The notes under the pieces were generated by a model. That model saw only the letters and a program-made list of their open reading frames with translations. It ran no database searches and was not told the origin of the DNA. A program made the position numbers and the translations under genes. From Bodo saltans (lineage: Eukaryota; Euglenozoa; Kinetoplastea; Eubodonida; Bodonidae): a DNA stretch of 31,204 nucleotides. Of the stretch, positions 1,052 to 30,327 are shown one piece after another (the stretch's first letter is position 1; every line of letters starts with the position of its first letter). Location: positions 28,445 to 59,648 of the forward strand of contig CYKH01000420.1 of assembly GCA_001460835.1 (NCBI GenBank). The letters are read 5' to 3'.

Positions 1052-3673
1052 ATGGCGTCAACCACCACCATTCAGCAACTTCCTACAATCACCTTGTCCA
1101 AGCGTGAGCTTCAAGAGGGAGCATACCGATTGCAAACAAGTGGCGTTGGGTGCCTCAAGTGGATCGGAATATCAAAGACAGTTCCAAAAACTCTCTACAT
1201 GGACCGTGGTGGGACGGCGTTGTTTTACACCCCTTCTGAGAAACCGTTGGTTAACCGTCTTATTTCCTTTAAGCACATGACTTGCATCAACGTCGAGGTG
1301 AAGGATGTCATGTCGATCGACAATGAAGTGAGGCGGGTGGAGTTGCGCATTGAGTCCAATGGGCCTTTCAAGAAGCCTTTAAGGCTCAGCATGATGGAGA
1401 AGGACGGAATTTTAGTGGCGCAAGTAGCAGCCCGAAGAGTAGGGTATCATTCTGAGCACATTACAAAAAATGCCTTTCAACGCCGGCTGCGCGAGGTGTG
1501 GCTACTAGGCGACGCAGATCGGAGTGGCAGCATCAGCTTACAGGAGCTGGTGGAGCTTCTCAAGCGGCTCAACGTCAAAGTGTCTCCTGCGGAGGTGGAA
1601 GAACGGTTTGCTCAAGTCGACACGGATCACAGCAATTCGTTAGAGTTTCATGAGTTTGTCCATTTATTCAGAGGCCTTACGACGATTCGCTGCCTGTCAG
1701 AGCTGTTTCGGTACTTTGCAGCGGACCACCGTCACGAAGAGATTGAGGGCGATGCTGCGGCTGAGGACGAGGAGGAGCAAGCGGCAAAACAACCTCCTAA
1801 GCTCCTGTTCGCAAACGGCCTCGTGCGGTTCTTCAGGGAGGCTCAAGGGGAGATTGTACCCGAAGAGATTGCTGATGGTATCATTGAACTGTACGCTGGT
1901 GGCAGGAACTCGACAAAGAAGAACGAGGAGTATGACGGCCTTGAGGAGACGAACCCCTCCGTCACCACAGCACCGAATGTAGGGGCCGTGGGTATGACGC
2001 TCCACGCATTCTCATTGCTGATGGTGGACACAGTGCGCAACAGCTGGTTTGACGGGGATCATGACCGCGTGTTTCAGTCCATGGATGAGCCGCTGCACCA
2101 CTATCGCATCGCTTGCTCACATAATACATACTCCAGCGGATCTCAATTCTCCTCTCAGTCCAAAACGGAGATGTATCACCGAGTCCTTCGGCAGCAAGGG
2201 TGCCGCTGTGTTGAGATCGACTGTCACAACGGTGCACGACTTCCGATGGTGTACCATCACTACACGCCCACCTCTGAGATTTCGTTTGAGGACGTTGTGG
2301 ATGCGATCAAAGAGTCAGCTTTTGTATCGTCTCCTTTTCCAGTGGTGCTTTCGTTGGAAGTTCACACGGACGCCCGCCAAACGATGATCATCGCGCACAC
2401 GCTTATGTCGAAGCTCGGCACCGCACTGCTGTATCCAGAGGAGCTTCAGTCCTATGGTGGACCTCTGCCCTTCACCCCAAACGCACTTCAATATCGCATC
2501 CTCGTGAAGTGGAAGGGTAGCCCTGATGATATTATCGCACAGCAGCAGCATCCCACACCACCCTCAAGTCAGCAACATTTTGATCCTAATGACCAGGCAC
2601 ATGCAGCAAGAACACTGCTTGGGTTCCGCTCGTGCCGAGCGAAGCTTGATGGAAATTCGTTGCTGCGGTCACTGATCACCGTTGGTGGTGTTCACTCGAA
2701 AGATGGCGTGAACTGCAAGCCCTCTGACATTCAGAGCACTTCAGAAGGGGACATGATCAAAATGGTGGGCAAAAGCTTCCAGCTAAAAAATACGCGCATG
2801 ATGACCCGAGGTTACCCTGCAGGATCACGCATGATGGATAGCACCAACTTGGACCCAATGGTGCCGTGGTCGAATGGCGTTCAAATGGTTGCCATGAATT
2901 ATCAGACGTGGGACGAACCGATGCATCTGCACGAAGGCATGTTCCGCGTCAATGGGCGATGCGGGTATCTCCTCAAACCACTTAGTCTACGGACAGCAGA
3001 ACGAGTGGAAGACATGTGGCTGGGAACGACGATGCCCAAGTCGATGGTGTTGACGGTGCGGGTTTTGTTTGGATACCAACTGAGTCACTTGAAGGCCGAC
3101 GTGGACACATTGAACACTCTTGTCGAGGTGTCGGTCCGTGAATGCCCCCAGACGCTGAATGCTGCTGCGTCTCCGTTCACAAGCCCAAATGCTATGCATG
3201 AAGACTCCTCGTTCGCCGCATCGTTGCGTAGTCCGTCCACTGTGACGTCGGTTGGCAGCGGTTGCGGCAACGATCATGCCTCAGCGTTTGAGCCCGCTGG
3301 GACATTTGAGGCGCTGCGCTCTCCCGCATCACGATCCAGCACAACGCCCATTACATTCAGCCAACACAAAGCACCGAAGTCCTTGAGCCTTAGCAAGACT
3401 CGTGTGATCACCAAAAAGACATCTGTTGTGAGGAAGGAAGGGTTCTTGCCATACTGGGACGAAGTCTTCACATTCCCTATTCTTGACGTCGAGCTTGCGA
3501 TGCTCTCGATTCACGTCAAGGACAAGGAACTGACAACTGACAAGAGCGTGGGCTACGGCTGTGTGCCGTTGTCCTCGCTGATGCTTGGATATCGCGCTGT
3601 ATCGTTGTTGAGCCCTCAAGGCGAGCCACTTTACGGCTCTGCTGTCGTTTGTCACTTTTCACTTTCGGTGTAG
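1052..3673 (+). CDS. PI-specific phospholipase C (PH-like, EF hands, X, Y, C2)
   Basis: 873 residues; an in-frame stop (TGA, 1046-1048) just upstream supports the ATG at 1052. Residues 1-130 are PH-like. Two EF-hand loops follow: D154-E165 (DADRSGSISLQE) and D190-E201 (DTDHSNSLEFHE). The X domain (about 348-475) has CSHNTY with the first catalytic His at 357, CRCVEIDC with the calcium-ligand Glu and Asp, and LSLEVH. The Y domain (about 490-655) has VKWKG, TRGYPAG, MNYQTWDEPM and CGYLLKP. The C2 domain (about 664-873) is interrupted by a Ser-rich insert at about 690-790. Expected reaction: hydrolysis of PIP2 to diacylglycerol and IP3. Oddity: the usual YHGHT reads YHHYT (401-405), so Tyr404 sits at the second catalytic His. 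Family assignment is firm; catalytic competence is doubtful. Confidence 0.95.
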   Translation: MASTTTIQQLPTITLSKRELQEGAYRLQTSGVGCLKWIGISKTVPKTLYMDRGGTALFYTPSEKPLVNRLISFKHMTCINVEVKDVMSIDNEVRRVELRIESNGPFKKPLRLSMMEKDGILVAQVAARRVGYHSEHITKNAFQRRLREVWLLGDADRSGSISLQELVELLKRLNVKVSPAEVEERFAQVDTDHSNSLEFHEFVHLFRGLTTIRCLSELFRYFAADHRHEEIEGDAAAEDEEEQAAKQPPKLLFANGLVRFFREAQGEIVPEEIADGIIELYAGGRNSTKKNEEYDGLEETNPSVTTAPNVGAVGMTLHAFSLLMVDTVRNSWFDGDHDRVFQSMDEPLHHYRIACSHNTYSSGSQFSSQSKTEMYHRVLRQQGCRCVEIDCHNGARLPMVYHHYTPTSEISFEDVVDAIKESAFVSSPFPVVLSLEVHTDARQTMIIAHTLMSKLGTALLYPEELQSYGGPLPFTPNALQYRILVKWKGSPDDIIAQQQHPTPPSSQQHFDPNDQAHAARTLLGFRSCRAKLDGNSLLRSLITVGGVHSKDGVNCKPSDIQSTSEGDMIKMVGKSFQLKNTRMMTRGYPAGSRMMDSTNLDPMVPWSNGVQMVAMNYQTWDEPMHLHEGMFRVNGRCGYLLKPLSLRTAERVEDMWLGTTMPKSMVLTVRVLFGYQLSHLKADVDTLNTLVEVSVRECPQTLNAAASPFTSPNAMHEDSSFAASLRSPSTVTSVGSGCGNDHASAFEPAGTFEALRSPASRSSTTPITFSQHKAPKSLSLSKTRVITKKTSVVRKEGFLPYWDEVFTFPILDVELAMLSIHVKDKELTTDKSVGYGCVPLSSLMLGYRAVSLLSPQGEPLYGSAVVCHFSLSV

Positions 3674-3845: not shown

Positions 3846-4271
3846 ATGCTCGCTCGCATTGTTGTCATTGCTGCCGTTGTTGCCGTTGCCCTCGCTGGTG
3901 TCCCGACCTTCGGTATCTGCGGCACTGGTACTCTCCAGAACCCCGTCATCACCACCTCTGATGCCGAGTGGAAGGCCGGAACCACCGTCCACTTCACCAT
4001 CTCTGGTGACCTGACCTCTCCCATCGAGAGCGGCTCCAAGCTGATCAACCTCGCCAAGTTCTCTGGCACGGTTGTTGAGGACACCACCCAGGACCTGTGC
4101 TCCTTCCCCAACACCCCCTTCACTTGCCCCACCGCTGCAGGCGTGAACTCCTGGACCTTCTCTTTGGACCTGCCCGCCATTCCCTTCGCCGGCAAGCTGG
4201 CCAGCACCTCCAACTTCAACAATGCCGATGGCTCCACCATCGTTTGCATGACCGCTGATGTTCAGTTGTAA
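3846..4271 (+). CDS. Secreted ML-domain (NPC2/MD-2-like) lipid-binding protein
   Basis: 141 residues. Residues 1-18 form a signal peptide (hydrophobic Ile/Val/Ala core ending ALAG). The mature part has four cysteines at 25, 85, 94 and 134, placed like the outer pair and the late inner pair of NPC2-type ML domains. WKAGTTVHFTISGDL early in the domain, the closely spaced C85/C94 and a final C134 in a beta strand all fit. ML domains are single beta-sandwiches that bind sterols or phospholipids in secretory or lysosomal compartments; the ligand here is unknown. The gene uses almost only C-ending or otherwise preferred codons (GCC, ACC, ATC, TTC, AAC, AAG), unlike its neighbours, which suggests an abundant protein. 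The reverse-strand frame over the same bases is a shadow. Confidence 0.8.
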   Translation: MLARIVVIAAVVAVALAGVPTFGICGTGTLQNPVITTSDAEWKAGTTVHFTISGDLTSPIESGSKLINLAKFSGTVVEDTTQDLCSFPNTPFTCPTAAGVNSWTFSLDLPAIPFAGKLASTSNFNNADGSTIVCMTADVQL

Positions 4272-4711: not shown

Positions 4712-7700
4712 ATGCTTGGGTGGGACGTGCCACTGATCAACGCGGTGTTGATCTACGCAGGGAACGTCGATAGCATTGCGTTGTCAAAAGCGCTGAGCAT
4801 CATTAGTGTGATTCTCGGTGTCCTTGCGCTTTGTGCTAGTCTTCACGCAGATCTTTTCTTTTGCGATGATCGCTCGCTAGCATTCGCGGGCCTCATAGGC
4901 TCCCTCTTTTGCACGATTGCAGGAGGCGCGTGCGCGTACTTCGTTGGCCAAGCACTTCTGCGCGCCGAAGGCTTCAAATTCTGGCAACCTTTCCAAGGAG
5001 GATTGTCTTTTGTGATTCTCCAGTATTTTGGGTGGCTGTTTTTTGGCGTTTCTGTCACAATGTACACCGTGTTCGCTGCTTCGTTTGAGCTAATCTTCAG
5101 TGAAGGTTGTCGCAGTGGTACGGTTACATCCGTAGGGTGTCTTGCGTTTGCGTCTATTCTCACTCTGCTCGCCTCAGTCCCTCGGTACGACGGCGCTGCC
5201 TCTCCGCTGTTTGCAAACCTAAAACTCATCAAGACGGACAACCTTGTCGTTGTTGCGTGCCTCACGGCATCGATGGTGTTCTCTTTCTTGTTGGAATTTC
5301 GAGCGCGGCTCCTTCAACCTTACCGAATGGGCCTCAGTATGTCCCTGTTCACCATCAACATTATCGCGCTTGTGCTTGTGGTGTTCTTGGGACGTCGTCG
5401 TTTCGATGGACAGAAAATCTTTCACCCGTTTCACGGTGGTTTTTACTTCGTGCTCATGCAGAGCAGCGGGTGGGCAGGCGTTGCCGTTGCCATTTTTTTC
5501 TTCCTTCGGTTTGCCATCGACACGATGCTTCCAGGTATGCTTGTGGGTGTCACGTTCCTCCAAGTTAGCTCCACCTGGCTGCTGTTGTTGTCGCTTGATT
5601 GCTTTGAGAATGCAGAGAGTGTGGATGCTCTCTTGCGGTTTCGACTCTCACGTGAAATCGTTGCACTGCTTATCATTGGTGTTGTTGCGTTGGGTACGAT
5701 CACCATTTGCGATTTAGCAAGCGTGCATCATTCGTTTTTGTACCACTTTGCACTACTATGCCAGGCATGCGTTGCCCCGCTCGTGCACATTTACGCGTCG
5801 GCGAATATTCGAGGATTTAACTTATGGCAGCCGTTTCTCGGTGGCCCACGGTTCATTTTGTTATCTGGAATCGCGTGGAGTGTGTACGCACTGGCCCACA
5901 TGATTCTTATTCTTGCGCTCTGGAATCGAATTTACGCTGTAGTCGCTGCTGCATCGCTGTTTGTCTTAGTGACCGATGTCCTTGTGTGTGCGTCGCTGCA
6001 CGTCTTCGACGAGCTTGAGGCTGGTAACGCCTTGCGCCAGGCGAGACGGGCTGCAGTTCGCCGACATTCTCCGTACCTGAACGGAGAGCTAGTGACCAGC
6101 GCACTCATGTCGATCGGGGGTGCCTTGACGCTCGGTGTGATTGATTACTCGACTCAGGTGATCTTTCGTAAGGCTCACATTGGTATTTTTGGTGTCGTAG
6201 CGATGCTCATTGGACCGCCACTTGCGCAAGCATCTGGGCGATGGGTGTACCCAAACTCATTTCGTGTCATGCGCCCATTCTATGGCGGCTCCGATCACGT
6301 TGCCCTGCAGACAGTTGGCTGGTCACTATGGGGAGCGATGGTCGTCGTGTTTGCGATCTTAGAAGTGAACCTCCTTATTGCAGAGGACTCAGTAGCTCAC
6401 GGCGCTGCAACCACCGCAGCTGCAGCCGCACTGTTTTCCTACTGCCTCATTGTCGCCAGCCTTCCTCTCTTTCGCCCGGATGAATCTACAACCGCAACGA
6501 CACCACCACGTGACAATGATCGTGTTCAAGTAGAGAATAACAACGGTGCACGTCGTGGCATTGGTGACAATGATGAGCGCACGGAAGGAATTCGTGAAGC
6601 GCAAGAACTCCTCCGAACTGGTGTCATTGTGAGCCCAGCATTGCGCCGAGCACTGCTTACCTATATCGCCACCTCAGCAAACACTGATGATGATAATGAG
6701 CCTCATCCCACGCCACCAATAGAACCTAGAGCCCATCAGCGCCGCACAATGCAGTCGATCGATTCTGAGTCACCGTCTCTTTCACCCAGAATGGCGCCAA
6801 CGAGTGTTCCTCGATCAGGAGAAGGGATGGGCTTCTTGGCTGTCACCCTCAGCAGTGGCTCACTGGTCCTAGGCCCAATCTGCGAGCTGCTCAATGGAAT
6901 GATGCAAGATCCCATGCGAACGGCTGCAGTGGGTCCTACAATGCTGGCCATGTCTCTTGCCGCGGTATCGGGGTGCCTCATCACGCATCTTGTGTGCGGA
7001 AGGCATCGCTACCCACACCACTACACGTGGTGGATGCCATTTGGTGGTGGTAGCAACTTCGCACTGCTTCAAACTCTCGGTTGGGCGATGGTGTCTGTCC
7101 ATTTGTCGTTGATCTTATCAAGTTTGTACTCGCTGGTGGCCCTGGGGAACCTTTCCTTGTTTGCGGGTGTGTTCTTTGCTGCTGGATTCTTCGGATTTGC
7201 TGGCCATATGTTCCTCGTTGTGTCCTTGTCGCAGTTCGACGTCAATGCGGAGGCCATGCCAGCCCACGAAAAATCATTCCTGCACCGAAACTCTGAGTGG
7301 TTTCTGGGGTCGATTCTTACCGTGCTGTTTGTTGCCTCTCTGTCCATGGTGGAAATGCGGTGGAAGCAGTCCCAGCAACTCTCCGTCGCTACTGTTCCTT
7401 TGATTTGTATCGGTGGTTTCTCATTTCTCGCGGCCATCGGTCTTGGCTGGGCTTCGGTGTGGAAGAGCAGGAGACTTGGCGCCACTGGTGAGCTATCGTG
7501 GGACCGCGCACCGATTACCCCACTGATGGCAGTACCACATCATCGAGCGCAGCACGCATTTCTCCCAGACCCGTCGCGCCGACAGCAGCGAAGAGCGTAC
7601 CAAGTCACCATGTTGAGTGAGACCGTGGTGGGCACGCTATTCCTTTTATGGGTGCTCAAACAGCTGTTTGCCTTCTCCGCGAACCGTTGGCTGCTGGGAA

Positions 7701-8920
7701 TCGCCATGGCCGCCATCACACATCACGCGATCATGCTGCTCACGATTGTGTGGCACGAGCACAGGTCCCTTACCGTTGTGGGTCGGGAACTCGCGGCGGA
7801 ACTTGCAACGTTCAGCATGTACTCATTTCACTACGTTGTGATGTTCGTGCTCGTCTACACCAGCTTTTACGCCCATCTTTCCACGCCGAGCGTGTTGTTC
7901 TTTGTGGGCATGAATGTTCTTTCCCTTGGGTCCGATACGATTGTTCGCTTCGTGCAGGTTGGTGCCATCGTGTGCATGCTGTCTGATGTCATCTCATGGA
8001 CGCTGGAGTGCACATGGTTCATGCTCCCTCTGCTTGCGTACAGTAGCAGCTACTACGGTACGAGTCAAGTGGACGGTCGACGAAGGCTTATGGCATTACT
8101 TCAGCATCCGTGGCTGGAGCGCTTCTGTGATGCGATTGCAAAATACTTCAGCTTACGTGTGGTGAGCGAATTTAACCCCACCCAGCCAAAGCTTCATGTA
8201 GTGTCAAGGCCGAGCGTTCAGTTTGCGCACACTCCAACGCCAGAAAGCCGCAAGCGAACCAAGGTGGTGTACGGCTTTCACCCTCACGGTGTGTGTCCCT
8301 ACACATGCTTATGGGCTAGCATGGGCAGTGCGTGGGTTCGAGCAGGCCTCCCTCGTGCAACGGTTCACGTCTCCTCGTTCCTGATGTCGGTGCCGGTGGT
8401 GCGCGACGTTCTTTTGAGCATTGGGGCCGTGGACTGCACCTTCGACGCGCTACGCGTATCCCATGGATCACCCGATGTGCAGGCGATGATGATCGTGCCG
8501 GGTGGATTGCGCGAGTGTAATCAGCCACTTCCGTCGTCAGAAGGATTCACCCTCGTCACCAAGAATAAAGGATTGTTTCGTTTTGTCCTGCAGAACGGTG
8601 GAACGTTGGTCCCAGTGTTTTGCTTCGGAGAGACGGACATCATGGGTAACGCTCCATTACCTATCATGCAATTCTGGGCCAAGAGCCGGTTGGGGATCAC
8701 CTATCCGCAGCTGCCGCATGGCCGCTTGTTGCTCCCTATCCCACGTCGATTGCCTATTTACATAGCCGTGGGTGAAGGCATCGTAGTGGACGCGATTCTT
8801 GATCCCCGGCCAGTGGACGTTGAGGCACTGCACAAGGAATACTACGCTGCTTTGCGAGCGCTGTTTGAGAAGCACAAAGTTGCCGCAGGGTATCCAGATA
8901 GTGTGCTGACATTGGTGTAA
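4712..8920 (+). CDS. Multi-pass membrane protein with five repeated modules fused to a DGAT2-type acyltransferase
   Basis: 1402 residues. Residues 1 to about 1115 are largely hydrophobic, with roughly twenty or more predicted membrane spans. They contain five copies of a motif close to WxPFxGGxxFxLLQxxGW, with the PF at residues 93-94, 239-240, 374-375, 522-523 and 776-777. Hydrophilic linkers lie at about 587-704 and 919-966. The C-terminus (about 1125-1402) is a DGAT2/MGAT domain: KYFS in place of the usual YFP, the catalytic HPHG at 1190-1193, VPGG at 1262-1265 followed by RE, GLFRFVLQNGG, and LVPVFCFGE. DGAT2 enzymes transfer an acyl group from acyl-CoA to diacylglycerol or related acceptors, usually at the ER or lipid droplets. 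Ordinary DGAT2 proteins are about 350 residues, so the N-terminal region is a large addition of unknown function. The enzyme domain is well supported; its substrate is not known. Confidence 0.85.
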   Translation: MLGWDVPLINAVLIYAGNVDSIALSKALSIISVILGVLALCASLHADLFFCDDRSLAFAGLIGSLFCTIAGGACAYFVGQALLRAEGFKFWQPFQGGLSFVILQYFGWLFFGVSVTMYTVFAASFELIFSEGCRSGTVTSVGCLAFASILTLLASVPRYDGAASPLFANLKLIKTDNLVVVACLTASMVFSFLLEFRARLLQPYRMGLSMSLFTINIIALVLVVFLGRRRFDGQKIFHPFHGGFYFVLMQSSGWAGVAVAIFFFLRFAIDTMLPGMLVGVTFLQVSSTWLLLLSLDCFENAESVDALLRFRLSREIVALLIIGVVALGTITICDLASVHHSFLYHFALLCQACVAPLVHIYASANIRGFNLWQPFLGGPRFILLSGIAWSVYALAHMILILALWNRIYAVVAAASLFVLVTDVLVCASLHVFDELEAGNALRQARRAAVRRHSPYLNGELVTSALMSIGGALTLGVIDYSTQVIFRKAHIGIFGVVAMLIGPPLAQASGRWVYPNSFRVMRPFYGGSDHVALQTVGWSLWGAMVVVFAILEVNLLIAEDSVAHGAATTAAAAALFSYCLIVASLPLFRPDESTTATTPPRDNDRVQVENNNGARRGIGDNDERTEGIREAQELLRTGVIVSPALRRALLTYIATSANTDDDNEPHPTPPIEPRAHQRRTMQSIDSESPSLSPRMAPTSVPRSGEGMGFLAVTLSSGSLVLGPICELLNGMMQDPMRTAAVGPTMLAMSLAAVSGCLITHLVCGRHRYPHHYTWWMPFGGGSNFALLQTLGWAMVSVHLSLILSSLYSLVALGNLSLFAGVFFAAGFFGFAGHMFLVVSLSQFDVNAEAMPAHEKSFLHRNSEWFLGSILTVLFVASLSMVEMRWKQSQQLSVATVPLICIGGFSFLAAIGLGWASVWKSRRLGATGELSWDRAPITPLMAVPHHRAQHAFLPDPSRRQQRRAYQVTMLSETVVGTLFLLWVLKQLFAFSANRWLLGIAMAAITHHAIMLLTIVWHEHRSLTVVGRELAAELATFSMYSFHYVVMFVLVYTSFYAHLSTPSVLFFVGMNVLSLGSDTIVRFVQVGAIVCMLSDVISWTLECTWFMLPLLAYSSSYYGTSQVDGRRRLMALLQHPWLERFCDAIAKYFSLRVVSEFNPTQPKLHVVSRPSVQFAHTPTPESRKRTKVVYGFHPHGVCPYTCLWASMGSAWVRAGLPRATVHVSSFLMSVPVVRDVLLSIGAVDCTFDALRVSHGSPDVQAMMIVPGGLRECNQPLPSSEGFTLVTKNKGLFRFVLQNGGTLVPVFCFGETDIMGNAPLPIMQFWAKSRLGITYPQLPHGRLLLPIPRRLPIYIAVGEGIVVDAILDPRPVDVEALHKEYYAALRALFEKHKVAAGYPDSVLTLV

Positions 8921-18118: not shown

Positions 18119-19288
18119 ATGTCATCCTACGCCACAAGCATCACAAATGCCTCCATTACATCCGCTGCGCACACATGCAATCTTGTCACCACACGCAACA
18201 ACAGAAAAGTGTATCGTGTTCGAGGCGGTCCGTTTGAAATCGATGACCACTACTCTGTCACGACTGTTGTAGGCCACGGCGCCTATGGTGTCGTGTGCGC
18301 TGCCCTTGACGAGCGCACTGGACGTGAAGTTGCCATCAAACGTATTGGTCGGATATTCGACGATCTCGTCGATGGTCGCCGCATTTTACGAGAAATTACG
18401 ATTTTGCGACTTTTGCGAGAAAGTAAATGCCGCAATGTTCTGCAACTTCATCGCGTTCTTCGCCCATTTGAACCTGTGGACACCTTCCGAGATTTGTATG
18501 TCGTCACGGAGCTGCTCGACCATGATCTGTACTCATGGATTCGTCAAAAGCGCGACACGTCGACACAACAGATCCGACATGTCATCGCACAAGTGCTTCG
18601 GTGTTTAGCGGATATGCATGCAATGGGCATTATCCACCGTGACATCAAGCCCAGCAACGTTTTGCTGAACGACAGCGAAGATGTGTTCGTATGTGATTTC
18701 GGTTTAGCGAGGGCAGGTATGCATGAGTTCCGTGAGCCAACCGACCTTACCGATTACGTCGTGACGAGGTGGTATAGACCCCCTGAGCTGCTGATGATGT
18801 GCAAGTATCACCTTCCAGTGGATGTGTGGACGGCGGGTTGCGTCATGGCCGAGTTTGCCATGCAGCGTCCACTATTCTCAGGCAGAGACTACATTCATCA
18901 GCTAAGCCTTTTAGTATCAACTGTGCAGGTGCGCAGCATTGAATTTGTACAGGAGTCTGGATCTGCTGCCGCTGGGTTCTTGTCGGAACTCGTAAGCAAA
19001 AGTCAACCACTGACGCGGCCACTCACACGCGTTCTCAGCATGCTCCCACCAGACGGAATCGATGTAGTGGAGAAGATGTTGGCGTTCGACCCGAAGGAGC
19101 GCATCACGGCGAGAGAGGCACTTAGACATCCGTTTTTCGCATCGGTCGGTGGCGAATCGCAGGCCATTTACCCGAAACCTCCCACCGAGAATCTTGACAT
19201 GTCCTTCGACTTGCAATGCGATATCTCGGAAGCTCAACTTCGACGAAAGGTATGGGACGAGATTGACGCACACTATGGAGAGAGTTAA
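18119..19288 (+). CDS. MAP kinase with TDY activation loop
   Basis: 389 residues from the ATG at 18119. All kinase landmarks are present: Gly loop GHGAYGVV (52-59), VAIK with Lys74, HRDIKPSN with Asp175, CDFGLAR with Asp193, the activation motif T211-D212-Y213, then VVTRWYRPPELL, DVWTAGCVMAEF, and RITAREALRHPFF. CMGC Ser/Thr kinases of this type are activated by dual phosphorylation of TxY by a MAPK kinase and phosphorylate Ser/Thr-Pro sites. TDY is common among trypanosomatid MAPKs. The APE Glu segment reads PPE, as in several MAPKs and CDKs. A 45-residue N-terminal extension precedes the kinase domain. All catalytic residues are in place, so it should be active. The exact orthologue was not identified. 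Confidence 0.93.
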   Translation: MSSYATSITNASITSAAHTCNLVTTRNNRKVYRVRGGPFEIDDHYSVTTVVGHGAYGVVCAALDERTGREVAIKRIGRIFDDLVDGRRILREITILRLLRESKCRNVLQLHRVLRPFEPVDTFRDLYVVTELLDHDLYSWIRQKRDTSTQQIRHVIAQVLRCLADMHAMGIIHRDIKPSNVLLNDSEDVFVCDFGLARAGMHEFREPTDLTDYVVTRWYRPPELLMMCKYHLPVDVWTAGCVMAEFAMQRPLFSGRDYIHQLSLLVSTVQVRSIEFVQESGSAAAGFLSELVSKSQPLTRPLTRVLSMLPPDGIDVVEKMLAFDPKERITAREALRHPFFASVGGESQAIYPKPPTENLDMSFDLQCDISEAQLRRKVWDEIDAHYGES

Positions 19289-20956: not shown

Positions 20957-22714
20957 ATGTCAAACGACGATTGCTGGTATTGCACACCGTGGTTCACCGT
21001 GTCGCTGGTGTTGCTCGAGCTTAAGTTCGGGATTGTGCGGTTTATTGTATCAATGATTGCTCAAACGATCGAGCGATACACTGCACCCACCATCAAGGTG
21101 GAGGCTCCCAAAACAAGGTTTGATGCTGCCCCATCGGCAACACAACTGACACCACAGTCCGCCGGTGCAGGGCAAATTCAGTGCTTCGATAAAGGCACGA
21201 ATGCTCCCCTTGGCCTCGTGCGTGCCATCCCCACTGATGAGGTGAAGGCTATTGTTGCTCGTGCTCGTGTGGCACAAGAGAAATGGGCCAAGACTAGCTT
21301 CTCCACCCGCCGAAAGTTGATGTTCTCCCTTCTAGATTACGTGATCGCAAACCAGCGTCTCATTTGCGAAACGGCAAGTGTGGAATGCGGCAAGACGATG
21401 ATGGACGGCACTCTGGGCGAGATCTTGACGACCCTTGAGAAGCTCCGTTGGACCGCTGCGCACGGTGAAGATGTTCTGCAAGAGGAGGTCCGTGATGTTG
21501 GCCTTATCACCATGCACAAGCGTGCTGCAGTGAATTACGTCCCTTTTGGTGTGATTGGTGCCATCGTCTCTTGGAACTACCCCTTCCATAACATCTACGG
21601 GCCCATGATATCAGCGCTTTTCGCTGGAAACGCGTTTGTCGGCAAGGTATCTGAGTACAGCTCGTACTACGCAAAGTTTTACGAATCGATTGTGCGCGAG
21701 GGTCTGAAGCAACTTGGTCAGTCCCCTGACCTCGTTACGTTTCTCACCGGCTTCGCAGAAACTGGAGAAGCGCTCGTGTCGTCTGCCGATAAGATTACGT
21801 TTATCGGCTCCCCTGGCGTTGGTAAGCTTGTCATGCGCAAAGCATCCGAAACCCTCACCCCTGTTGTGCTTGAGCTCGGTGGTAAGGACCCTGCCATTAT
21901 CCTTGAAGATGCTGATTTGGAACAAGTGATTCCCATTGTCATGCGTGGTACGTACCAGAATTGCGGCCAGAACTGTGTTGGCCTTGAGCGCATCCTCGTT
22001 CACGCATCGATTCACGACAAGCTGGTCAACATCCTTGTCGAGAAGGTCAAGAAGCTGACGCAAGGCGCCGCTTCCACTGGATCTGTGAAGGATCTGGGTG
22101 CAATGACGATGGGACCCGCGTCCGTAAAGAAGATTCAAAAGCTTGTGGATGAGTCTGTTGCCTCCGGTGCAAAAGTACTCGTGGGCGGCAAGGCAACCAC
22201 GGATCAGTTCTTCCCCCCAACCATCATGGTCAACGTGACCTCCAAGACGCCGATTGCCGTGGAGGAAGTCTTTGGCCCTATTCTTGTCGTCATGAAGTTC
22301 TCCTCGGATGAGGAGGCCATCCATCTTGTGAACGACTGCCCATACGGCCTGGGCTCCAGCGTCTTCTCCGCCAACACTGCTCGTGCGAAATCCATTGCAG
22401 ACAGGCTGAAGACTGGCATGGTGAACGTCAATGACTTCGGCATCAACTACCTGTGCCAATCCCTTCCTTTTGGTGGCGTGAAGGTGTCTGGTTTCGATCG
22501 ATTTGCTGGACGTGAGGGGCTTCGTGGCAACTGCGTGGTGCGTGCCTCCACCACTGACAGAATTCCAGGAGTGAAGACCGTCATCCCCCCTATTCTGCAG
22601 TACCCCATCCAAGAATCCGCGTTTGTGTTTATGGAGAACCTTGTCCGCGTCTTGTATGGCACAACGCTGCAGTTTGTGACAAGTGCCGTTAGCCTTGCGA
22701 CCTTCAAGAAGTAG
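20957..22714 (+). CDS. Membrane-associated aldehyde dehydrogenase (MSC7/ALDH22-like)
   Basis: 585 residues. The N-terminus has a hydrophobic segment (about 12-34) and the C-terminus another (about 560-580); the rest is a full ALDH fold. Catalytic landmarks: SWNYPF with Asn207, FIGSPGVGK in the NAD-binding region, the general base Glu306 in LELGGKDP, and the nucleophile Cys340 in GQNCVG, plus EEVFGPILVV and PFGGVKVSGFDR. It oxidises aldehydes to acids using NAD(P). The membrane-associated subfamily around yeast Msc7 and plant ALDH22 fits the hydrophobic ends and the GQNCVGLER sequence, so a lipid-derived aldehyde substrate is plausible but unproven. Codon use is strongly biased toward C-ending codons, suggesting high expression. 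An alternative Met at residue 33 would remove most of the membrane segment. Confidence 0.9.
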   Translation: MSNDDCWYCTPWFTVSLVLLELKFGIVRFIVSMIAQTIERYTAPTIKVEAPKTRFDAAPSATQLTPQSAGAGQIQCFDKGTNAPLGLVRAIPTDEVKAIVARARVAQEKWAKTSFSTRRKLMFSLLDYVIANQRLICETASVECGKTMMDGTLGEILTTLEKLRWTAAHGEDVLQEEVRDVGLITMHKRAAVNYVPFGVIGAIVSWNYPFHNIYGPMISALFAGNAFVGKVSEYSSYYAKFYESIVREGLKQLGQSPDLVTFLTGFAETGEALVSSADKITFIGSPGVGKLVMRKASETLTPVVLELGGKDPAIILEDADLEQVIPIVMRGTYQNCGQNCVGLERILVHASIHDKLVNILVEKVKKLTQGAASTGSVKDLGAMTMGPASVKKIQKLVDESVASGAKVLVGGKATTDQFFPPTIMVNVTSKTPIAVEEVFGPILVVMKFSSDEEAIHLVNDCPYGLGSSVFSANTARAKSIADRLKTGMVNVNDFGINYLCQSLPFGGVKVSGFDRFAGREGLRGNCVVRASTTDRIPGVKTVIPPILQYPIQESAFVFMENLVRVLYGTTLQFVTSAVSLATFKK

Positions 22715-27288: not shown

Positions 27289-30200
27289 ATGGAAACAAGG
27301 GACTTGTTCCCGACAGATGCACAACATCCGCGCACATTAGTTAGTTCACATAGCACGTACCGCCCTCCTCATACGCCTCGACTCCCTCGATCCGTTCAAG
27401 GGTCACGCAATCGTAGCGTTCCACTTCCAACGGCCCTCAGCAGGAAGCCAGGAACTGCCAACTCCCATGCAGGTTCGTTGTTTAACGGCACTCTTGGATT
27501 TGGTGGAACGTTAGGAGGCATCTTGTCCCCAGGACAGTACGTGACGCAGCATGCAGCTGAGGATATTGGGGCGGTGGTGCCCTACACTCTTATGACGGAG
27601 TCATCGGAGGTTGCCCTGGTGATGGATACAGACGCTCGGATGGTGGACTCTTCACGAACCAGGTACGCCTCATTCGTGAAGGACATTGACGCCGCTCATC
27701 TACAGTTTCAATCTCCTTCCCTTTTTGCGGAGGCGATTGTGCGGGAAGTGCAGTGTCGTGAGACGACGACGCCAGCGATGCGCGTCGCGGCCGCGACATG
27801 GGCCCTTGAGGTACTGTCCTCGCAGCCAGGCCAGGAAACGCTTCGCAACATTCGAAACATTCTCATGCCTGCGTTGTATATTGGATTCAATGACGTGTTC
27901 GACCCGAAAGCAATCCCAGGAGGAGCGCGAAGTATTCTAGCGGACACATCCGTTGCGGTAGTCGCTCAGAATGCATTTCTTATCAACGACCTGTACGCTG
28001 ATCAATATTTGTATCGCTATCAAGAAACGATGCAAACAACGCAAATGACGGCGAAACTACAACAACTTGGGGTGAGCAAGAAGGGTGCGATTTTCAATAT
28101 GACCGAAGCATTGGCGTCGCAGCGACTTGCCTTTTCCTTCCGAGCTTGGCGAGTTCGCACGCGCTCGAAGCGCCTTGAGCGATGCAGTCGAGGGAATCGC
28201 ATTATTCGCAGGGATGAAAGCTCGAGGCAGTTAGTTCTTCAAAACTGCTTTAGCGTCTGGAAGAGTCACGTCGAGCGGTCACGTAGCGTTTTTCTTAGCG
28301 AGCGCCTGCACAATGCGGCCTCGCAGCTGGAGAATGCAAAGAATCAGTTTCAACTGCAATGTTTCCGCTCCGACAAGCACCTTTTCACTGTCGAGGAGCT
28401 GCGCAGTGAGCTCTACACGATTCGCAAAGACTACGACACACTCTTGCAGCAGAAGCGAGACTTGGAGAAAACACTTCGAGACTACGATGTTGAGGCAACC
28501 AAGAAGCTGAATCATCACGTCAACAGCATTTTGGCAGAATTAAACTCATGGCGGCGATTCTCACGACGATGCGTTGAAGGCTTGTCCGTGCACGACGAGA
28601 TTGTGAAGAAACTGGAAGAGCAGCAGGCCGGATCGCAAGCGTCGGGCTCCGATGATGAACATCAACCAACGCTGTCCCCATCGCATGAACCGGTCGGTGC
28701 GCAGCACAGTAGTGGAAAGCGGAAAAGTGCCATCGGAGCGTTAGCATCGCCCACGTCCAACGACGGCACTTCGCATGACATGAGCGGCACTTCCGAAGCT
28801 GTGTTGTTGTCATGGGTCCAATCCGTGTTGCTGAGTGCACCACTCACGCCATCCACCACAACAGTGTCCAACTTCTCGACAGATTTCCAGTCTGGTGAGG
28901 TGATGCTCCTTGTGCTCCACAGTGTATTCCCAAATGACGTTCCCCTCACCCCGCTGCAGGAAGCAACTGTGGCAAAGCGATTGGAACGCTTAGTCGCGTC
29001 CTTTGTGAAGTGCGGTGTCGCAGTGGTGCCCAGCGCATCTGACTTCTTGGACTGTAACAGCGATGTGATTTTCATCGTTCTTGCGGAACTGTTTGGCCGT
29101 AATTTGCAACTTCAGTCCCTTCGGAAAGCAAAGGAGCTCACGGATGGATCCTACACTGGGTTGGAGGAAACACTCACATCCCAAATTGAATACACCCAAG
29201 AAATGCTGCCCTCCATCCTTGAGAGCTCACGAACAGAAATCGCAAACTTGATTGAGCAAGAAAACGTCATGCGCCAACAAAGTGGTGCGTTGTTGAAATG
29301 GCAAGAAGCTGTCGGACGTGATGCTGCGTTTGCGACGCGTGAGCGCATGTCCGGGAATCCAGTGCGCGCCATCGGCAAAACAGTCGTGGAAAAGTATTGG
29401 AAGTTTAGGGTGGGGCGGTACTCTGATTTGGAGCCAAAGTACCGCATCAAAGATGAAGGGTGGAAAGACCATCTCGTGGGCTCGTTGCGAAAGGTCCTGC
29501 AGAAGCACGTTCACACGACCACAGGGTTGTTTTTCCGTTTTTCGTGGTCGGCAACGACAATGAATGAAGTTCACTTTTGGAGAATCGCACACGTCTTTAA
29601 ATTTGCAGAGAAACCCATGACGCCCCAACTCGTGGAGAAGATCTTCGCGCAAGTGGTGAAGAACACTCAGCACAACCCTGATCTGCAAGATGGACCGGAA
29701 AATGTGTTGCTCCAAGAGATTGCTCCTCAAGACTTCATCGAAGTCTTAATTCGCCTAGCAGACGCTAAATACACTGCTAAGTCGCTACCTGACCGTGTTG
29801 ACCAACTCCTACAAGCGGTCCACAAGATCTCTCTTGGTGGCACGGTGACAAGCAATCCGGCCATGCAACAGTATTTGTATTCAGAGCCATCTCAGCGTGT
29901 CCTTGACCGATTTATGGTGGACGTGGTACGCATTTACCTGTTCTACGCCAAGCGACTTGCTCGAGGCCAAAATTACGCACGGTTGCTATCCTATGTTCTG
30001 CACATTGATCACCTTATGCAGCTGTTAGAGGACTTGGGCGCCATTCCAGGCGAAGGGAATTCGGCGCCGTTTGTCACGACACCCCAAGTGCTGTCTGTGT
30101 TGAAGGTAATCTCTGCTCAGGACGACGGCAGCGTCCTCTCTGAATTTTCGTTCCACAACTTTGTGGAGCTGCTGGGATCCTTGAGTGGATACCGTACCCC

Positions 30201-30327
30201 AGATCCTCTAGTTCCTGTCGCCACAAAACTAGAAATCATGCTGACGACTTTGATTTCAAGAATCAGAGCTCGTAACAAAGGAAGCTCTCTAGTTGTTTCA
30301 GATGTACGAATCACAGCGGTTGTTTAG
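27289..30327 (+). CDS. Large SFI1-like / coiled-coil / calponin-homology-like protein
   Basis: 1012 residues. The N-terminus (1-100) is basic and disordered. Two SFI1-like segments with FxxW cores follow (SFRAWRVRT near 283 and CFSVWKSHVE near 320), a type that often binds centrin. Residues about 345-420 form a coiled coil. Residues about 505-610 look like a calponin-homology (CH) domain of the axonemal type: LLSWVQSVLL, NFSTDFQSGEVMLLVLH, then DVIFIVLAELFG. The C-terminal third (about 700-1010) is helical, with EF-like FIEVLIRLADAKY and FHNFVELLGS and no clear calcium ligands. Such combinations occur in basal-body and axonemal proteins, so a flagellar or centrin-linked role is inferred. No specific orthologue was recognised. 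Confidence 0.65.
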   Translation: METRDLFPTDAQHPRTLVSSHSTYRPPHTPRLPRSVQGSRNRSVPLPTALSRKPGTANSHAGSLFNGTLGFGGTLGGILSPGQYVTQHAAEDIGAVVPYTLMTESSEVALVMDTDARMVDSSRTRYASFVKDIDAAHLQFQSPSLFAEAIVREVQCRETTTPAMRVAAATWALEVLSSQPGQETLRNIRNILMPALYIGFNDVFDPKAIPGGARSILADTSVAVVAQNAFLINDLYADQYLYRYQETMQTTQMTAKLQQLGVSKKGAIFNMTEALASQRLAFSFRAWRVRTRSKRLERCSRGNRIIRRDESSRQLVLQNCFSVWKSHVERSRSVFLSERLHNAASQLENAKNQFQLQCFRSDKHLFTVEELRSELYTIRKDYDTLLQQKRDLEKTLRDYDVEATKKLNHHVNSILAELNSWRRFSRRCVEGLSVHDEIVKKLEEQQAGSQASGSDDEHQPTLSPSHEPVGAQHSSGKRKSAIGALASPTSNDGTSHDMSGTSEAVLLSWVQSVLLSAPLTPSTTTVSNFSTDFQSGEVMLLVLHSVFPNDVPLTPLQEATVAKRLERLVASFVKCGVAVVPSASDFLDCNSDVIFIVLAELFGRNLQLQSLRKAKELTDGSYTGLEETLTSQIEYTQEMLPSILESSRTEIANLIEQENVMRQQSGALLKWQEAVGRDAAFATRERMSGNPVRAIGKTVVEKYWKFRVGRYSDLEPKYRIKDEGWKDHLVGSLRKVLQKHVHTTTGLFFRFSWSATTMNEVHFWRIAHVFKFAEKPMTPQLVEKIFAQVVKNTQHNPDLQDGPENVLLQEIAPQDFIEVLIRLADAKYTAKSLPDRVDQLLQAVHKISLGGTVTSNPAMQQYLYSEPSQRVLDRFMVDVVRIYLFYAKRLARGQNYARLLSYVLHIDHLMQLLEDLGAIPGEGNSAPFVTTPQVLSVLKVISAQDDGSVLSEFSFHNFVELLGSLSGYRTPDPLVPVATKLEIMLTTLISRIRARNKGSSLVVSDVRITAVV

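Follow-up and report, generated by a model that had tools for sequence, protein, structure and literature searches.

Canonical DGAT2-type acyltransferases are membrane proteins with a catalytic domain of Pfam family PF03982, and the described enzymes that come closest to the protein reported here depart from this plan by a long membrane region. In Aurantiochytrium, a thraustochytrid, DGAT2C carries 12 putative N-terminal membrane spans (10 elsewhere in the same paper) that are missing from the ordinary DGAT2D, and is an acyl-CoA:sterol acyltransferase that makes steryl esters (PMC10686087; this and the other papers cited are represented by excerpts). The stretch containing spans 9-10 is required for location at the endoplasmic reticulum (ER) and for the product (PMC10686087). 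AlASATa and AlASATb possess the HPHG motif, lack YFP, a motif important for yeast DGAT2, and have a multi-span N-terminus that, according to the authors, matches nothing in the PDB (PMC8821962); of these two, AlASATb closely resembles DGAT2C. Here, we report a gene of the kinetoplastid Bodo saltans in whose predicted product a four-span membrane module, present five times, is joined to a DGAT2-type domain. The gene lies in a stretch of 31,204 nucleotides (assembly GCA_001460835.1, contig CYKH01000420.1, positions 28,445 to 59,648 of the forward strand), which was analyzed as a whole and is referred to as the window. Its features, in window coordinates and with the amino acid (aa) ranges of the product, are as follows.

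4712..8920, + strand: whole gene, putative multi-span DGAT2-like acyltransferase, 1402 aa (open reading frame, ORF)
4775..5179, + strand: membrane module copy 1, aa 22-156, core P93 (hydropathy, repeat profile)
5234..5596, + strand: membrane module copy 2, aa 175-295, core P239 (hydropathy, repeat profile)
5612..6001, + strand: membrane module copy 3, aa 301-430, core P374 (hydropathy, repeat profile)
6068..6460, + strand: membrane module copy 4, aa 453-583, core P522 (hydropathy, repeat profile, single-module prediction)
6473..6814, + strand: hydrophilic linker from copy 4 to copy 5, aa 588-701
6815..7222, + strand: membrane module copy 5, aa 702-837, core P776 (hydropathy, repeat profile)
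7265..8011, + strand: further hydrophobic spans, aa 852-1100 (hydropathy)
8258..8896, + strand: DGAT2-type acyltransferase domain PF03982, aa 1183-1395 (Pfam, E 2.5e-27)
8276..8290, + strand: FHPHG motif, aa 1189-1193
8495..8515, + strand: VPGGLRE (GG..E) motif, aa 1262-1268
8606..8632, + strand: LVPVFCFGE motif, aa 1299-1307

An initial annotation of the window had described a membrane module at 4712..8200. The start of this region holds, but the ORF reaches 8920, and stopping at 8200 would lose the catalytic domain. The identity of the C-terminal part as an acyltransferase is well supported by the PF03982 match, which scored 96 bits against a curated cut-off of 22 and was the sole Pfam match of the protein at E up to 1. 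The motifs HPHG, GG..E and VP...F.E, shared with canonical DGAT2, MGAT and AWAT enzymes, are invariant in all four aligned DGAT2-type proteins of the genome, including two ordinary ones, which suggests that the domain is functional. Both ordinary proteins (L009 and L010) contain the YFP motif, whereas the window protein has KYFS and its complete paralogue SYFR in its place. Canonical enzymes have one or two spans, with as many as four predicted for plants (PMC3185287), against 20 or more predicted by hydropathy here, and such repeats do not appear in the published descriptions, as excerpted. Because it departs from them in both span number and YFP, we class the window protein, on its sequence, as DGAT2-like and not as a canonical DGAT2. 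MBOAT enzymes (PF03062), i.e., DGAT1 and ACAT/SOAT, resemble it in their many spans and, if our reading below is correct, in a neutral-lipid product, but they form a separate protein family, which had no match in the same Pfam search of the window protein.

With DGAT2C, AlASATa and AlASATb, as far as the excerpts describe them, the window protein has in common a C-terminal DGAT2-type domain, HPHG, the lack of YFP and a long multi-span N-terminus. In place of the approximately 12 extra spans of the thraustochytrid enzymes, however, it has five four-span modules and further spans, and HPHG is located at residue 1190 rather than near residue 642. In addition, thraustochytrids are stramenopiles, whereas B. 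saltans is a euglenozoan. The protein thus bears these marks of the thraustochytrid sterol acyltransferases (HPHG, no YFP, multi-span N-terminus), but we stop short of placing it in that group.

Five copies with a PF.GG core, spaced 146, 135, 148 and 254 residues apart and each set in a block of about four membrane spans, had been noticed in the initial annotation; the cores and spacings are exactly as given there, and hydropathy places four hydrophobic spans in every copy. The core letters of copies 1 to 5 are WQPFQGGLSFVILQYFGW, FHPFHGGFYFVLMQSSGW, WQPFLGGPRFILLSGIAW, MRPFYGGSDHVALQTVGW and WMPFGGGSNFALLQTLGW. In the motif proposed for them, WxPFxGGxxFxLLQxxGW, the PF.GG part is found in 5/5 copies and the Q and the final GW in 4/5 each, but the leading W is weak (3/5). 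The last gap does hold a hydrophilic linker, measured at about 114 residues rather than the approximately 117 claimed, 33 of which are K, R, D or E.

To score these repeats, a hidden Markov model (HMM) was built from 15 repeats of three paralogues (see below), which were chosen by eye, with the window protein excluded. Applied to window residues 1-1100, it returned seven rows, two with scores below zero and five positive at the five cores (51.9, 35.6, 39.3, 55.0 and 47.4 bits). The best domain among 1000 shuffles of the window protein, made in blocks of 12 such that local hydrophobicity was kept, reached 9.7 bits. Profile-profile comparison linked all 10 copy-position pairs, with probabilities of 52.6 to 98.0%. 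The internal repetition is therefore borne out at the level of sequence, by the paralogue-derived model against shuffles and by the linkage of copy positions. Over 20 diverged copies, P is conserved in 20/20 and the first G and Q in 18/20 each, and charged residues occur in no more than 5/20 copies at any of 40 columns round the core. A candidate sixth copy at aa 853-1030 was rejected: this block, which follows copy 5, matched no copy position with a profile-profile probability above 0.5%, so no sixth copy is detectable.

The genome of B. saltans is available as a draft assembly (29.3 Mb, 934 contigs). Nine matches to the flagellar-rod family PF05149, a marker of euglenozoans, occur in it; a spliced-leader exon pattern, by contrast, had 0 matches within 3 mismatches, which taken alone would speak against a plain kinetoplastid, although a draft may lack arrays of this kind. 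Four proteins of the genome match PF03982, namely the window protein, one encoded on contig C794 and two ordinary ones (416 and 462 aa). When the repeat region was used as a genome query, three paralogues were found that are 23 to 25% identical to the window protein. The C794 paralogue has 1552 aa and includes the DGAT2-type domain; a second lies downstream on that contig, separated from the first by a single 370-aa ORF, and is truncated by the contig end; the third, on C917, becomes unreadable (N) past 1090 residues, before any catalytic domain could show. Two further matches, at E 0.42 and 1.29, were regarded as chance and discarded. In each paralogue, five copies were selected by eye. Copy 2 has lost PF.GG in all three, with P, Q and W kept (shifted by one residue in one of them). 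Repeats at the same position are more alike (mean score 94 over 30 pairs) than the 160 other pairs (mean 40), and none of 2000 label shuffles reached the same-position mean. The best partner is the same-position copy for 14/15 paralogue repeats, but for 2/5 window repeats. The five-copy layout is therefore clearly older than the split of the three paralogues, and probably, but less clearly, older than the split of the window gene as well. In the paralogue cut by the contig end (L028 3315-3566), a 41-residue stretch occurs twice, 43 residues apart, which is either a recent duplication or an assembly artefact.

Structure prediction of copy 4 alone gave four helices (predicted local distance difference test, pLDDT, 80.5). 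The five-copy model had a pLDDT of 40 and a predicted template modelling score (pTM) of 0.36, and its helix boundaries alone were used. The PF loop is located between spans 2 and 3 of every module and contains, over 20 repeats, 43 K/R versus 12 D/E; the corresponding values for the other two short loops are 18/30 and 19/24. From these loops, the PF.GG loop of every module is predicted to lie on the cytosolic face.

A clear match to a known transporter or lipid-scramblase fold would have told against the proposals of the initial annotation. A search of the predicted module against solved structures returned generic helix bundles and no clear match, which is a weak test for a four-helix unit; transporter, scramblase and sterol-binding folds did not stand out in it, a result that excludes none of them. 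In Pfam, 13 families were each matched by 1/20 repeats (best E 0.057), which we took as chance. Searches against the sequences of solved structures gave nothing at E 1 or below when the whole protein was the query; the C-terminal part yielded four matches at E 1.1 to 1.4 and the repeat profile a single one (potassium channel KAT3, E 1.2), all taken as chance. Scans of viral contigs and prokaryote genomes, which need close patterns of 7-10 residues and say little on distribution, found no relatives. Searches of the open-licence literature revealed no description of repeats ahead of a DGAT2 domain, and in a paper on Trypanosoma brucei lipid droplets (PMC4262433) the terms DGAT, acyltransferase and steryl ester are found in the reference list only, or nowhere. 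As far as Pfam, PDB and the open-licence literature reach, the module had no clear match and may be novel.

In our view, the best reading of these data, to which we assign a probability of roughly 0.5, is that the gene encodes a synthase of steryl esters or other neutral lipids with a membrane platform built from repeats. It is favored because of the parallels with DGAT2C and the AlASAT proteins, the presence of HPHG without YFP, the occurrence of YFP in the ordinary DGAT2 proteins, and the fact that MBOAT, the family of DGAT1 and ACAT, had no match in a six-frame search of the draft assembly. The protein would be a DGAT2-like enzyme, presumably acyl-CoA-dependent, in which five four-span modules and further spans replace the short membrane hairpin of canonical DGAT2. 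Since the HPHG domain of DGAT2 enzymes is on the cytosolic face (PMC4694924, PMC3185287), the PF loops would lie on the same side of the membrane as the active site. Neutral lipid esters would be made at the ER, on its cytosolic face, with steryl esters more probable than triacylglycerol, and the modules would hold the enzyme in the bilayer and bind or gather the hydrophobic acceptor. Spans adjoining the catalytic domain help to set acyl-chain choice in mouse AWAT2 (PMC4694924) and in plant DGAT2 (PMC7650248). The repeat, the paralogues and the DGAT2-type domain with its motifs come from the data themselves; topology, ER location, activity, acceptor and module role are elements that we infer. 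Of the functions suggested in the initial annotation, a putative lipid- or sterol-contacting element has become more likely, because a DGAT2-type domain is present in the same polypeptide and the nearest characterized architecture is that of a sterol acyltransferase.

Several observations weigh against a steryl-ester synthase with a repeat-built platform. Spans 1-8 of DGAT2C are dispensable for its product and ER location (PMC10686087), which makes it less likely that catalysis requires all of the modules, and the same report states that conservation of the DGAT2C spans does not extend to DGAT2 homologues elsewhere among eukaryotes. The thraustochytrid membrane regions were compared with ours by description and not by sequence, and the absence of YFP is one mark that need not be specific to sterol enzymes. 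The absence of MBOAT rests on a draft assembly read in six frames, in which one candidate scored and none passed; in addition, the genome has one LCAT/PDAT-type gene (L052), and neutral lipid could also come from its two ordinary DGAT2 genes. Finally, the tails after span 4 are charge-balanced (61/63), and therefore the topology rests on the short loops, and the script that placed the spans set span 4 wrongly in at least window copy 2.

If the reading as a neutral-lipid synthase is true, B. saltans would represent a second eukaryotic lineage, besides thraustochytrids, in which a DGAT2-type domain and a large membrane platform are joined; in this case the platform can be seen to be built of a single repeated unit. 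This would offer a way to ask what role the extra spans play in DGAT2-type enzymes, and would hint at how an organism with no detected MBOAT gene might make steryl esters. A bolder form of this idea, which we put forward only tentatively, is that the PF.GG module is an undescribed membrane domain that binds the lipid acceptor and, used in tandem, concentrates sterol or feeds it to the fused enzyme, such that steryl esters would be made by DGAT2-type enzymes in place of MBOAT-type ones.

Other explanations were also considered. The protein may belong to the same enzyme class but use diacylglycerol or fatty alcohol as the acceptor and thus make triacylglycerol or wax, the repeats merely enlarging the anchor. 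The Pfam name of the domain, diacylglycerol acyltransferase, and the triacylglycerol synthesis by Aurantiochytrium DGAT2C in yeast that was reported in an earlier study (cited in PMC10686087) agree with such an activity, which we nevertheless consider rather unlikely: the genome already has two ordinary DGAT2 genes whose products contain YFP, and a dgat2c knockout in A. limacinum did not lower triacylglycerol, the enzyme having made steryl ester (PMC10686087). Somewhat more doubtful is a regulatory or retention device that senses membrane sterol or lipid and sets protein level or location, leaving catalysis untouched. It would fit the finding that A. limacinum had more of the protein and more steryl ester when spans 1-8 of DGAT2C were deleted, and that steryl ester synthesis was not significantly raised by this deletion in yeast (PMC10686087). 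However, the conservation of P, the first G and Q over 20 copies appears to exceed what would be expected of a mere anchor, and the window protein has no other Pfam domain. It is improbable, in our estimate, that the repeats form a flippase or scramblase coupled to the enzyme, although a multi-span unit fused to a lipid-modifying enzyme, with five units of four spans each, recalls the design of bacterial MprF, which combines a membrane translocase with a cytosolic synthase. A pore-forming repeat, the other function suggested in the initial annotation, is very improbable, as nothing supports it, the repeats are fused to an acyltransferase domain and the columns round the core are poor in charge.

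Some observations on gene content and neighborhood are added here. Provided that the assembly is complete, the lack of an MBOAT match together with a single LCAT/PDAT-type gene would make the neutral-lipid toolkit an unusual one. Directly upstream of the acyltransferase gene, a 141-aa ORF (3846-4271, + strand) matches the ML (MD-2-related lipid recognition) domain PF02221 with E 3.4e-10, one of only two PF02221 matches in the whole genome. Further upstream, a neighboring gene resembling phosphatidylinositol-specific phospholipase C (PI-PLC; 1052-3673, + strand) has Pfam matches to EF-hand, X, Y and C2, and another PI-PLC-like neighbor is located at L027:2228-5050, as judged by ORF listing alone. 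The product of PI-PLC is diacylglycerol, but a shared neighborhood need not imply a shared function. For several of the remaining ORFs in the window, Pfam gave nothing above the cut-off. On the same strand, the window also contains genes for a protein kinase (18119-19288), an aldehyde dehydrogenase (20957-22714) and a calponin-homology protein (27289-30327).

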